From Sphingobacteriaceae bacterium (GTDB taxonomy: Bacteria > Bacteroidota > Bacteroidia > B-17B0 > Aurantibacillaceae), in the NCBI GenBank assembly GCA_947480015.1, contig CANKBS010000004.1, forward strand, positions 62,001 through 126,000: a stretch of DNA of 64,000 nucleotides, read 5' to 3'. The notes beneath the pieces were generated by a model that was not told the DNA's origin, made no database searches, and was given only the letters and a program-made list of their open reading frames with translations. Of this stretch, positions 31,576-62,774 are shown piece by piece (the first letter of the stretch is position 1; the number at the start of each line of letters is the position of its first letter). Both the position numbers and the translations under genes were made by a program.

Positions 31576-32565
31576 TTATATTATTTGCAATTCGGGCATG
31601 TGGCGGGCGCCTTCCAGCACCTCAATAATTTCGGAGGTGGTACTCAAGGTCACTAATTTGGTACGGGTTTCTTTAAAGTTAGGAATGCCCCTGAAGTAAT
31701 TAGCATAATGGTTCCGCATTTCGAGCAGACCTAATTTCTCACCTTTCCACTCAACCGATTTTAATACATGGGTTTTGGCAACATCCACGCGATTGTCCAT
31801 AGTAGGTTTAGCCAAATGTTCGCCGGTGGCAAAATAATGTTTTATTTCATTGAAGATCCATGGATAACCAATGGCGGCGCGGCCTATCATGATACCATCT
31901 ACGCCGTATTTATTTTTGTAGTCGAGTGCTTTTTCGGGCGAATCAATATCACCATTCCCAAAAATAGGAATTTTTATGCGTGGATTATTTTTAACTGCGG
32001 CAATGTGCGACCAGTTAGCTGAGCCTTTGTACATTTGTGCGCGGGTTCGTCCGTGAATGGATAAAGCCTGCACGCCAATATCCTGCAAACGTTCGGCCAC
32101 TTCCATAATGTTGATCATCGATTCGTCCCAACCCAGGCGGGTTTTAACCGTAACCGGTAAAGAAGTGCTTTTAATAACCGCTTTGGTTAAACGCACCATT
32201 AAGTCGACATCTTTTAGCACGCCGGCGCCGGCGCCTTTGCAGACCACTTTTTTAACGGGACAACCAAAATTAATATCTACAATATCGGGTTGTGTGGCAT
32301 CAACAATTTTAGCCGACATGGCCATGGCCTCTTCGTCGCCACCAAAAATTTGAATACCAATGGGGCGTTCGTAATCAAAAATATCGAGTTTTTTGCGGCT
32401 TTTAATGGCATCGCGTATGAGGCCTTCGCTGCTGATAAATTCGGTGTACATCAAATCGGCACCGTATTGTTTACATACGAAGCGAAAAGGCGGATCACTC
32501 ACATCCTCCATGGGAGCCAAGAGGAGCGGGAAATCGGGGAGTTCAATATTTCCTATTTTAATCAA
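31576..32565 (-). CDS. dusB: tRNA-dihydrouridine synthase (DusB type)
   Basis: FMN enzyme that reduces uridines in the tRNA D-loop to dihydrouridine with NADPH. Length is 329 residues. TIM-barrel Dus features: LLAPMEDVSDPPFR at residue 15, MYTEFISSEGL, the catalytic Cys in DINFGCPVKKVVCKGAGAGVL near 103, SIHGRTRAQMYKGSANW, and IFGNGDIDSPEKA followed by GIMIGRAAIGYPWIF. The short form with KGAGAGVL fits DusB. Monocistronic; the upstream intergenic region holds a putative RNA gene. Confidence 0.93.
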   Translation of the reverse strand: MIKIGNIELPDFPLLLAPMEDVSDPPFRFVCKQYGADLMYTEFISSEGLIRDAIKSRKKLDIFDYERPIGIQIFGGDEEAMAMSAKIVDATQPDIVDINFGCPVKKVVCKGAGAGVLKDVDLMVRLTKAVIKSTSLPVTVKTRLGWDESMINIMEVAERLQDIGVQALSIHGRTRAQMYKGSANWSHIAAVKNNPRIKIPIFGNGDIDSPEKALDYKNKYGVDGIMIGRAAIGYPWIFNEIKHYFATGEHLAKPTMDNRVDVAKTHVLKSVEWKGEKLGLLEMRNHYANYFRGIPNFKETRTKLVTLSTTSEIIEVLEGARHMPELQII

Positions 32566-32741
32566 GCATCAAAGATACTGAAAAAAGGTCGAAATTAAGT
32601 TAGGGAAACCAATGGCCTTGCTTTTAGTTTTTTTTGGTAAGGCAGGTTTAATAACCCAAAAACCTGAAAAATATTACATCTGTATTATTGTAGGAGGCTT
32701 TGAATTTTATTTTGCGAAGTTTTGAGGCATATTTGTACTGT

Positions 32742-32906
32742 AAATCATTCGCGTTTTAAAGCGTAGGGCCTCTAAGCCTGAACCAAAAGAACCGACATGC
32801 TGTGTGACTTGTTCTCAAGGTCTGACCTCTAGAAGGCAGAAGTGGTCCCGGAAGACCACAAAAACCAAAAAAGCAAAAAGCCAGCCCTGTAAGGTTGGCT
32901 TTTTTA
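32742..32906 (+). ncRNA. putative stand-alone structured RNA
   Basis: A CATATTTG box at 32728-32735 (one mismatch to TAnnTTTG) would start a transcript near 32742. It could fold into a rod: 32768-32774 with 32830-32837 (one bulge), 32782-32784 with 32819-32821, 32788-32792 with 32811-32815. A separate perfect hairpin follows (GTGGTC/GACCAC, 32842-32859, loop CCGGAA), then an A-rich linker and a strong terminator (32876-32886 with 32893-32903, T run). There is no reading frame of substance and no same-strand gene behind it, so it is not a leader. I could not match it to SRP RNA, tmRNA or RNase P; a 6S-type or lineage-specific sRNA remains possible. Confidence 0.5.
32876..32906 (+). terminator. 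rho-independent terminator of putative RNA gene
   Basis: Stem AAAAGCCAGCC / GGTTGGCTTTT with one G-T pair, loop CTGTAA, T run. No coding gene ends before it on this strand, which supports a non-coding transcript. Confidence 0.85.
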
Positions 32907-33040
32907 TTCGTGATAAAATTCAAAATACAATTCGAGTCTCGAATATTCTCAATGGCTTATTTCACGTAATTCCGGCTATGAATGGGTGTTTTGTAATCCC
33001 GAGAAAACACATAACCGTTTAAAACCTGGTATCTATTTCT

Positions 33041-33213
33041 GATACTTTTGACGCGCAAAAGTATCCAAAACGCTTTTGACCTTTTGTAGGAGATTTTTCT
33101 TTCGCGAGCTAGAGGCAGTGAAAGAAAACCACTGCCTGTTCAGGCCATTTTTCTAAACGCTCAAACCCATTGATGTAGGCCTGTCCAGCAGCTATCTCTG
33201 CAAAAGGTCAAAA
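33041..33213. repeat. nested inverted-repeat element
   Basis: Dense set of perfect inverted repeats in a gene-free stretch (32907-33306): GATACTTTTG/CAAAAGTATC (33041-33050, 33056-33065); outer pair TTTTGACCTTTTG/CAAAAGGTCAAAA (33074-33086, 33201-33213), extended inward by GAGAT/ATCTC; and inside it GGCAGTG/CACTGCC (33114-33120, 33130-33136) and CAGGCC/GGCCTG (33141-33146, 33178-33183). It looks like a small palindromic mobile or REP-type element. No open frame. Confidence 0.75.
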
Positions 33214-33306
33214 AGGCAGCACCCGTCAAACTGAACCCAAAAAACTCCGGGCATATTAACTGAATTTCAATCCGAATTTTGTGGCACAACTCCTATAAGA
33301 ATTCGC

Positions 33307-34368
33307 TCAAACCTTCCTGCGGTTAAAACGCAGGGCTTTTAACATCCAGCGCGGGAGTGGCTTTTCGGGTTTACGTTTTTTAAGATCGAGGTACCAGCCG
33401 AATTTTTTCATAATTGGAATTTTTTTGGTCTCCACAAATTCGATCAAGGCCCCATCGGGATCTTCAACATACGTAAAATGCCCTGCCGCTTCGCCCATTT
33501 CAAAACCTGCGCCACCATCTACTGTAAAGGGATGTCCGGCTGCTTCGCATTTTGTTTTTAAGGCAGCCATGTTTTTAATGTCAAAACACAAATGAATAAA
33601 ACCTAAATCGCCCCAAAAACGGTTTTCGAATATTTTTTTAGGCGTATAATTTTTTACTTCAATCAGTTCGATGTAACTGTTTCCAAAAAGCTCGGCAAAT
33701 GGACCTACGCGCGGTTTGGCGTGGGTTAAAATGGCACGTTTCATGCTTGAAGAACCACCTGGTAAAACGGCAAGATCGTTAAAGGAATTTTCTTCCTTAA
33801 ATAAAACTTTATCGTAACCCAATACCTCGCTGTAAAACTTAATTGATTTTTCGAGATCGCTAACACCAATGATCATACCGCTGGGACCGCCTGTGTGCTT
33901 TAAGCCGCGGGCATACCACACCGTATCTTCAATGATTTCGAATAAATTTCCAAAAGGATCTTCTACAAAAAAGTGTTTGAGAGAAAGTGGATTGGAAGAA
34001 ATTTCTCCCAAAATTTTTACACCCTGTGTTTTTAAAAAGTTATGGGTAGATTGAATGTTATCGGTTTTTATTTTCGCACAATACAAACCCAGATCGCCCA
34101 GTTGTGGCTGAAATGCCGGGGCTTGTGGGGTACGTGAGGTGTATTGCCAAATTTCAAATCCACCGCCGCCTTTCATATTAATGGCTAAAATAGCGTGACG
34201 TTTTTGTGCTTTGCCGCCGGTATAAGGCAGCATTTGATTGGCTTCGGCCGCTTCTTCAAAAATGGGAATGTCCATTCCGAAGTTGTTGCTGTACCATTTA
34301 AATCCTTCGTGAACATTGGCCACCCCAATACCCACCTGTTGAATACCCGAAATAATATATTGTTTCAT
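33307..34368 (-). CDS. VOC-superfamily (glyoxalase/dioxygenase-like) protein
   Basis: Protein of 353 residues with two VOC modules in tandem, about residues 5-145 and 163-320. Each starts with the typical strand-helix (GIQQVGIGVANVHEGFKWYS; GMIIGVSDLEKSIKFYSEVL) and ends with a metal-site-like motif (HFFVEDPFGNLFEIIE; HFTYVEDPDGALIEFVE). Putative metal ligands His and Glu are present in these. The fold fits dioxygenases, glyoxalase I or related isomerases; substrate unknown. A basic tail of 40 residues (LDLKKRKPEKPLPRWMLKAL) follows the second module. It lies alone. Confidence 0.8.
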   Translation of the reverse strand: MKQYIISGIQQVGIGVANVHEGFKWYSNNFGMDIPIFEEAAEANQMLPYTGGKAQKRHAILAINMKGGGGFEIWQYTSRTPQAPAFQPQLGDLGLYCAKIKTDNIQSTHNFLKTQGVKILGEISSNPLSLKHFFVEDPFGNLFEIIEDTVWYARGLKHTGGPSGMIIGVSDLEKSIKFYSEVLGYDKVLFKEENSFNDLAVLPGGSSSMKRAILTHAKPRVGPFAELFGNSYIELIEVKNYTPKKIFENRFWGDLGFIHLCFDIKNMAALKTKCEAAGHPFTVDGGAGFEMGEAAGHFTYVEDPDGALIEFVETKKIPIMKKFGWYLDLKKRKPEKPLPRWMLKALRFNRRKV

Positions 34369-35112: not shown

Positions 35113-35216
35113 TGGCAGCAAAGATAAGTCCTTTACTTCGACGAAAGTTTATAATTTATCGACCGACGATTGTTATTAACGGGCAATTTATTCCCTCATT
35201 ATCATCAAATAGCAAT

Positions 35217-39667: not shown

Positions 39668-39689
39668 AAAAAATTGTGAGAGATTTGTA

Positions 39690-39727
39690 TCCCTGAAGCA
39701 GAACGCCATTCTGCCTCAGGGATTTTT
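39690..39727 (+). terminator. recA terminator (first unit of repeat array)
   Basis: Long hairpin: ATCCCTGA / TCAGGGAT outer stem and GCAGAA / TTCTGC inner stem around a CGCCA loop, with one unpaired base on each side, then TTTTT. It lies 22 nt after the recA stop. Confidence 0.85.
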
Positions 39728-40114
39728 ATTTATCCCTAATTGAAAGACAGGAGTCTTTTATAACACTAGATTATTTTCTTCTTTATTTAATCACCTTAGT
39801 CTTTCTACTTTAGGGTGTATAGGGCAGAATGTCCTTCGCTTCAGGAAAGGCTTCAAGCAGAACGCCACTCTGCCTTAGGGATTTTATTTATCCCTAAAGT
39901 GAAAGAGACGAGTATTTTTTATTATTACAGCTTTTTCTAATTTATTTAATCACCTAGGTCTTTCTACTTTAGGGTGTTTATGGCAGAATGTCCTTCGCTC
40001 CAGGGCAAACTTCAAGCAGAACGCCATTCTGCCTCAGGGATTTTATTGTTTATGGCAGAATGTCCTTCGCTTCAGGGCAAACCTCAAGCAGAACGCCATT
40101 CTGCCTCAGGGATT
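39692..40114. repeat. 159-bp tandem repeat array derived from terminator hairpins
   Basis: The 27-bp core AAGCAGAACGCCATTCTGCC followed by TCAGGGA occurs four times at 39696, 39855, 40014 and 40086, i.e. spacings of 159, 159 and 72 bp. The 159-bp units also share blocks around TCTTTCTACTTTAGGGTGT and GGCAGAATGTCCTTCGCT. Within each unit, GGCAGAATG pairs with CATTCTGCC, and in the second unit CCCTAAAGTGAAAGA pairs with the TTTCTACTTTAGGG block. The last unit lacks the middle part. No open frame; fills most of the 560-bp gap between recA and the next gene. Confidence 0.85.
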
Positions 40115-40227
40115 AAATCAGAATCGAAAGGAAAATTGAATTGAAGTTTCAAAAATCGGATTGCTCAACTGATCGAATGGAAACGGGCGGCGCGCAATAT
40201 TTCTGTAGCTTATTCGTTATTCTGTTT

Positions 40228-62485: not shown

Positions 62486-62569
62486 GATTAAGGATGGGCC
62501 CTAAAAAATAACAAATAATTTTAAAATTTAAAATAAAAAGAAAATTGGTAGAACACAAATTAGACCAAG

Positions 62570-62712
62570 CGCCATGGGATGTAGGGCAGCAAGCCGGTGG
62601 CTTGATGAGCCGGCTTCTGTGTTGATGGAAAGCGGAATCCGATTGCTATCGGGTCGGAGCAGCCCGGTCACAAGCAGGCTAACGAATGAAACATTGGCCT
62701 GCTTGTGAGGCG
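62570..62712 (-). repeat. GGGCGCC-type palindromic element (second copy)
   Basis: Read on the minus strand it begins GGGCGCCTCACAAGCAGGC. It has two perfect inverted repeats: CACAAGCAGGC/GCCTGCTTGTG (62669-62679, 62697-62707) and AAGCCGG/CCGGCTT (62591-62597, 62610-62616), and runs through CCGGGCTGCTCC to CCCTACATCCCATGGCGC. Its order of blocks is like the element at 31280-31400, with little base identity in the middle. Confidence 0.6.
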
Positions 62713-62723
62713 CCCAAAAAAAT

Positions 62724-62756
62724 AAAAGGTCTGAATAATTTTATCCAGACCTTTTA
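62724..62756 (-). terminator. rho-independent terminator of the aldehyde dehydrogenase gene
   Basis: Stem AAAAGGTCTG / CAGACCTTTT (62724-62733 with 62746-62755), 12-nt loop; on the minus strand a T-rich run follows. It is 20 nt past the stop at 62775. Confidence 0.85.
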
Positions 62757-62774
62757 AGAAATAAAAAAATAAGT

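Follow-up and report, generated by a model that had tools for sequence, protein, structure and literature searches.

A predicted transcript of about 165 nt, lying between dusB and a VOC gene in a 64-kb window (the whole stretch of DNA analysed here) of a 3.77-Mb genome in 66 contigs, probably belongs to a family of hairpin-array RNAs, in which many short hairpins share one hexaloop. The fuller claim, that the locus is a short, diverged hairpin-array RNA and as such a small stand-alone RNA gene, is one to which we give an even chance. A sequence-only reading of the same DNA had already proposed a stand-alone RNA; this is still the best reading, because short hairpins with related loops tie the locus to covarying CCGUAA arrays in related genomes, but the grounds first offered for it, namely a foldable rod and a possible 6S identity, were not supported by the analysis. 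The parts of the candidate and its surroundings are as follows, in window coordinates.

31576-32565, minus strand: dusB, one flank of the candidate
32728-32735, plus strand: promoter-like -7 box CATATTTG, fitting TAnnTTTG with one mismatch and weak on its own
32742-32908, plus strand: predicted transcript of about 165 nt, with ends predicted from the positions of box and terminator
32766-32779, plus strand: hairpin GGGC-CUCUAA-GCCU, with 4 pairs (one G-U) and a loop that fits C-[CYNUAA]-G
32822-32839, plus strand: hairpin CUG(A)CCU-CUAGA-AGGCAG of the predicted fold, its loop not strictly of the family type
32842-32859, plus strand: hairpin GUGGUC-CCGGAA-GACCAC, a perfect 6 bp with a loop one base off CCGUAA
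32860-32874, plus strand: A-rich linker, U-rich when read on the minus strand
32875-32905, plus strand: intrinsic terminator AAAAAGCCAGCC-CUGUAA-GGUUGGCUUUUUU, ending in six T and with a loop that is an array variant
32932-33294, no strand assigned: dispersed repeat of about 360 bp, separating the candidate from the VOC stop codon and lying outside the RNA
33307-34368, minus strand: VOC gene, the other flank of the candidate

Both neighbours are encoded on the minus strand, and the next long frame on the plus strand begins only at 35170, which bears out the earlier statement that no gene follows the candidate on its own strand. The perfect CCGGAA hairpin, the A-rich linker, and the strong terminator that had been described are likewise all present. 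The terminator was recovered on both strands by a purpose-made scan, and a standard terminator scan of the window did not list it; because its minus strand is likewise rich in T, it could act in both directions. Hairpin, linker, and terminator are real, but the promoter box is weak. A box does stand where it had been claimed, but it departs by one mismatch from the -7 consensus TAnnTTTG (as given in PMC9723704), it is of a kind common by chance (boxes with one mismatch number 1341 in the window, below the count in shuffles), and a sigma-70 promoter scan of the window placed no promoter at the candidate. The longer pattern TTTG-N17-23-TANNTTTG has four matches in the window, which is no more than chance, and the box of the candidate is not one of them. 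By eye, ATATTTGTAYTGT stands before the array L169 too. The segment had also been said to contain no reading frame; a stop-free frame of 92 codons (32744-33019) does cross it, but at chance level, with a frame as long in 128 of 500 shuffles, no match in Pfam, and a sole NCBIfam match of 13.8 bits against a cut-off of 100. The segment itself is present in a single copy in its own genome. For dusB, the nearest named carriers are uncultured Bacteroidia and Bacteroidetes MAGs.

The link to a family comes from arrays in other members of the genus. A covariance model built from the window RNA alone (R1) gave one match elsewhere in 40 genus genomes, at locus L168 (22.3 bits, E 0.09 per genome); since an E value of 0.09 per genome over 40 genomes predicts a few such matches by chance, the match is not significant by itself. 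L168 contains no frame longer than 90 codons and is, by eye, non-coding; five C-CCGUAA-G hairpins stand there in a tandem array (AAACC-CCGUAA-GGUUU, GACC-CCGUAA-GGUU, GGUC-CCGUAA-GACC, UGCC-CCGUAA-GGCA, and GAAACC-CCGUAA-GGUUUC) that a terminator closes. A pattern of two hairpins derived from L168, CCCGTAAGN{10,40}CCYGKAAG, matched 46 times in 11 of the 40 genomes, 8 of the matches coming from the genome that supplied the pattern, versus 2 matches for the reversed control. On inspection, 8 of these 11 genomes hold 13 array loci; the single matches in G024, G035, and G006 were set aside as coding or as a single 3' hairpin with a terminator. Two further arrays in G061 bring the set to 15 loci in 9 genomes, 6 of which carry two arrays each.

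All of these arrays are intergenic, and each consists of 2 to 12 hairpins on a single strand, with stems that vary and a hexaloop, C-[CCGUAA]-G, that hardly changes; CCGUAA occupies the loop in 57 of the 72 hairpins listed, and the variants comprise CUGUAA and rarer loops. By eye, a box such as GTAATTTTACTTCAGAAAC or ATATTTGTATTGTC precedes many arrays, and a terminator closes most of them. Among the 15 loci, a downstream gene is common to L168 and L172, to L171 and L178, and to L182 and L185, and the other nearest neighbours found differ. In two arrays of G021 (L176 and L191), a GC-rich hairpin is, by eye, inserted in some loops between CCG and UAA, and these loops look as if their two halves could form an internal loop. 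The arrays have no match in Rfam 15 at the cut-off (L182 gave only noise at E <= 1), and the DNA of one array had no match in plasmids or phages. Among the papers listed in our literature searches, we met none on arrays of this type or on a queA leader like the one described below, which leaves absence from print unproven; the family is apparently undescribed.

The stems of the arrays covary. In a set of 48 distinct 20-mers from 13 loci, picked by loop and closing pair only and including units from the same or related arrays, which are not independent in these counts, 84.4% of cells were paired, versus 67.4% (sd 1.7) after shuffling; 75 cells were changed on both sides, versus 30.6 (sd 5.0); and the covariation score was 0.595, versus 0.278, with none of 500 shuffles as high in any of the three measures. 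Controls in which the partner was slid by one to three columns gave at most 25 both-side cells. Two other counts were not above chance: pairs with both-side change numbered 5, versus 4.8 in shuffles (425 of 500 reached this value), and further pair types numbered 16, versus 14.5 (reached by 101 of 500). The closing C-G is uninformative because it is invariant. The result holds for the array family, not for the candidate's own copy.

Membership of the window RNA was assessed with a unit model (R2) built from array units of other genomes, with the window excluded. Its best match in the window is the terminator hairpin of the candidate at 32880-32899 (20.6 bits, E 0.00076); over the whole genome, with 150 of 628 first-look candidates scored, this hairpin ranks second-equal (E 0.044), tied by a match at G000:C7 inside a coding frame, and the genome's other five weak matches reveal no second array. 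Hairpins of the form C-[CYNUAA]-G with at least 4 pairs occur just twice on the two strands of the window, both times in the candidate (loops at 32770 and 32887); they lie 117 nt apart, and none of 200 block shuffles put two within 130 nt. With the class widened to C-[CYNKAA]-G, in which the K was chosen after the window's CCGGAA hairpin had been seen, the plus strand holds three hairpins, all in the candidate, with the loops CUCUAA, CCGGAA, and CUGUAA within about 140 nt, and the two strands together add one more elsewhere; three such hairpins fell within 130 nt in 0 of 200 shuffles, and two in 1 of 200. The canonical CCGUAA loop is found in no candidate hairpin, and the CCGGAA loop in none of the listed array units. 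In local alignments of the segment with 14 array elements, those with L168, L179, L182, and L199 beat all 400 shuffles and that with L169 was reached by 1 of 400; 9 of the 14 were reached by at least 10 of 400, the alignment with L212 of G061 among them. The last hairpin of L212 is the one that most resembles the terminator of the window.

The whole segment folds with z -3.15, and 166 nt from 32821, comprising the hairpin and the terminator, reach z -5.0, in a 64-kb window in which 87 of 568 overlapping intergenic stretches of 166 nt on both strands lie at z <= -3 (40 shuffles each). Cuts that omit the terminator (1000 shuffles each) fold no better than shuffled sequence, with z -0.54 for 32742-32870, +0.06 for 32759-32861, and +0.37 for 32742-32841. 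The terminator exceeds chance and the rod does not; the foldable rod of the sequence-only reading is not supported. Two other places in the window fold strongly as well: at 39688-40120, a hairpin unit like AGCAGAACGCCATTCTGCCTCAGGGATTTTATT recurs, by eye, several times behind a gene end, and the intergenic stretch 62566-62760 folds strongly on both strands (z to -6.8) and is followed by a terminator-like hairpin.

This chance-level fold outside the terminator is one of three observations that favour a different account, in which the terminator serves the VOC gene on the minus strand, the A-rich linker is its U-rich tail, and a plus-strand RNA does not exist. The others are that the hairpin is T-rich on both strands and that the dispersed repeat sits 12 bases past the VOC stop codon, so that, with the repeat removed on paper, the terminator would stand about 40 nt behind that stop. 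We consider this account fairly unlikely: it accounts neither for the two additional plus-strand hairpins of related loop type nor for the array-type loop of the terminator itself, and a terminator working both ways could serve the VOC gene and a plus-strand RNA alike. The repeat has 8 matches in the genome including itself, the others being 83-88% identical and some of them partial; several copies start, by eye, just behind a likely stop codon, and the stretch 33036-33213 matches genome G061 at 64%.

A second account denies the loop any specific meaning. Here, a CCGUAA-type hexaloop is merely stable, the window holds a terminator plus chance hairpins, and the arrays, lacking a specific partner, are repeats or RNAs that resist nucleases. 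Its support is viral: of 120 viral loci listed from a pattern scan, 7 have a C-CCGTAA-G hairpin and, behind it, a terminator-like one with the same loop (L235, L253, L273, L285, L293, L310, and L342; at least 7 among the matches listed). Where the flanks were tested with PHROGs, L273 being excluded, L253 lacking a downstream flank, and L293 lacking an upstream one, a major head protein lies upstream (5 of 5) and a PhoH-like protein downstream (5 of 5). A further viral locus, L258, has the hairpin pair in another setting. Against a merely stable loop stands the distribution of R2 matches in the genus, where the 21 loci listed from 12 genomes comprise (i) 5 queA leaders, (ii) 3 places in the G061 arrays, (iii) 10 places inside frames longer than 90 codons, and (iv) 3 others, namely one 3' hairpin found in both G006 and G007 and one other non-coding hairpin; moreover, the other terminator-like hairpins of the window have different loops. 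On this tally and these differing loops, CCGUAA seems not to be a loop of general use in terminators here, within a scope of 12 genomes for R2, 40 genus genomes for the two-hairpin pattern, and, beyond the genus, viral contigs searched by pattern. We hold the stable-loop account to be unlikely. In G007 (L215) and G006 (L218), a single GCC-CCGUAA-GGC hairpin precedes a terminator, and the gene at whose 3' end it lies appears to be the same in the two genomes.

Relatives of the segment itself were sought at several distances, and the conservation that the sequence-only reading had looked to in the syntenic dusB region did not appear: no orthologue was found at the locus. Among 29 other genus loci read (30 loci for 41 places), dusB stands beside a VOC gene in 12, with a frame of about 200 codons between the two in 9 and 20-85 bases between them in 3; the remaining 17 have no dusB within reach. 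None of the 12 dusB-VOC loci has the segment, the best match of any locus read to the candidate part having E 1.5, and the intervening gene of about 200 codons has left no remnant in the window better than E 0.2. The 39 congeners yielded no DNA relative; in 28 of them nothing beyond short stretches (about 15-31 nt) matched at E <= 1, and the 14 loci read among these were coding or unrelated by eye. A DNA search of 59 other relatives gave 7 with a match at E <= 0.001, all within query positions 151-209, that is, the A-rich linker and the terminator; by eye, 4 are ordinary terminators and 3 other A-rich sequence. In 395 genomes of the class, with the best 2 candidates scored per genome listed, 6 others matched at E <= 0.01, and the 7 places from this search were rejected, all lying in open frames longer than 100 codons. 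Phages and plasmids had no match to the candidate.

Known RNA families offered no home for the segment. Rfam, the search that had been proposed as a check, returned one tRNA and nothing else for the whole window at the gathering threshold, and only noise around the candidate, both at that threshold and at E <= 10. A diverged 6S RNA, the identity that had been floated, would fit the candidate in its similar size, its stand-alone position, and its terminator, as well as in the lack of any recognised 6S RNA elsewhere in its genome. Like the candidate, 6S RNA (RF00013) and 6S-Flavo (RF01685) are stand-alone, similar in length, and equipped with a terminator of their own; unlike them, the candidate has no model match, no significant rod, and no relative found in the genus. 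Neither model matched 32600-33310 at E <= 10, and the long rod with a central bubble that marks a 6S RNA is replaced by several small hairpins, with z near 0 once the terminator is left out. Nor did either model exceed its cut-off in any of the 40 genus genomes, in searches where RF00013 passed it in four control genomes and RF01685 in zero, the latter search thus lacking a positive control. Sub-threshold matches at E <= 10 appeared in 2 of the 40 genomes with RF00013 and in 28 with RF01685, and 12 such loci, when compared, had no mutual similarity. The absence of any relative found in 39 congeners also sits badly with a housekeeping RNA, and we regard a 6S identity as very improbable.

The loop of the arrays recurs, as a single hairpin, in the leader of queA. 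In 12 genus genomes (L201-L210, L229, and L230; in the genome of the window at G000:C1:48751-48770), the hairpin UAAUC-CCGUAA-GAUUA is identical in 12 of 12, and immediately behind it comes a conserved frame of five codons, ATGACATTTATTTTTTAG or the same ending in TGA, which by eye encodes MTFIF with the stop TAG or TGA. A second hairpin has a loop, UUGAGUC, that can pair with a downstream GACUCAA in a pseudoknot-like manner. Covariation in the leader is modest, with three pairs showing both-side change (4 of 500 shuffles as high) and four such cells (0 of 500). Further pair types fall below the shuffles, 497 of 500 of which reach the observed count, and the first hairpin is invariant. The name QueA derives from an NCBIfam match to 33 residues of the genome's own gene (E 2.2e-8), which falls below the full-length cut-off because the query is a fragment. 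Two of the leaders, scanned against Rfam with the preQ1 models included, had no match at the cut-off, and the leader may be an undescribed cis-regulatory element. It shares with preQ1 riboswitches (reviewed in PMC11625349) a queuosine gene and a pseudoknot-like pairing, and differs from them in that no preQ1 model scored over the cut-off in the two leaders; the comparison concerns the leader, not the window RNA.

That the loop stays the same while the stems change, always on one strand of an array, favours an interaction that reads the loop in RNA and speaks against a DNA operator, because the stem sequence of an operator would be fixed. CsrB/CsrC and RsmY/RsmZ are sponge RNAs that titrate CsrA, to which their loops present GGA. 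The arrays resemble them in being stand-alone, in being built from numerous short hairpins that repeat one loop motif and are joined by linkers, and in often occurring as two per genome; unlike them, the arrays present CCGUAA or CUGUAA without GGA, and their partner protein is putative. The window copy differs further in having two or three related hairpins only, and its CCGGAA loop contains GGA. By this analogy, the repeated loop would be the binding site for a putative RNA-binding protein, and an array, with its many sites, may act as a decoy that soaks the protein up. The candidate small RNA would be transcribed from the plus strand and, with two or three sites only, would be either a decoy of little strength or a copy in decay, in a family whose spread is patchy in this uncultured Bacteroidota genus. 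The single hairpin of the queA leader would be a candidate for a natural mRNA target. That arrays, window RNA, and queA leader hairpin form one post-transcriptional system, in which a protein or a queuosine-pathway enzyme binds C-[CYGUAA]-G and is titrated by the multi-hairpin RNAs, is speculative, and we think it improbable; the queuosine-pathway enzyme enters as a candidate binder since C-U-G-U-A-A presumably recalls the anticodon loop of tRNA-Tyr.

Post-transcriptional control in Bacteroidota is, to our knowledge, poorly known. Multi-hairpin RNAs that share one loop, covary in their stems, and find no match in Rfam 15 point to a system of protein-RNA recognition in these bacteria, for which the same hairpin in the queA leader is a candidate target.
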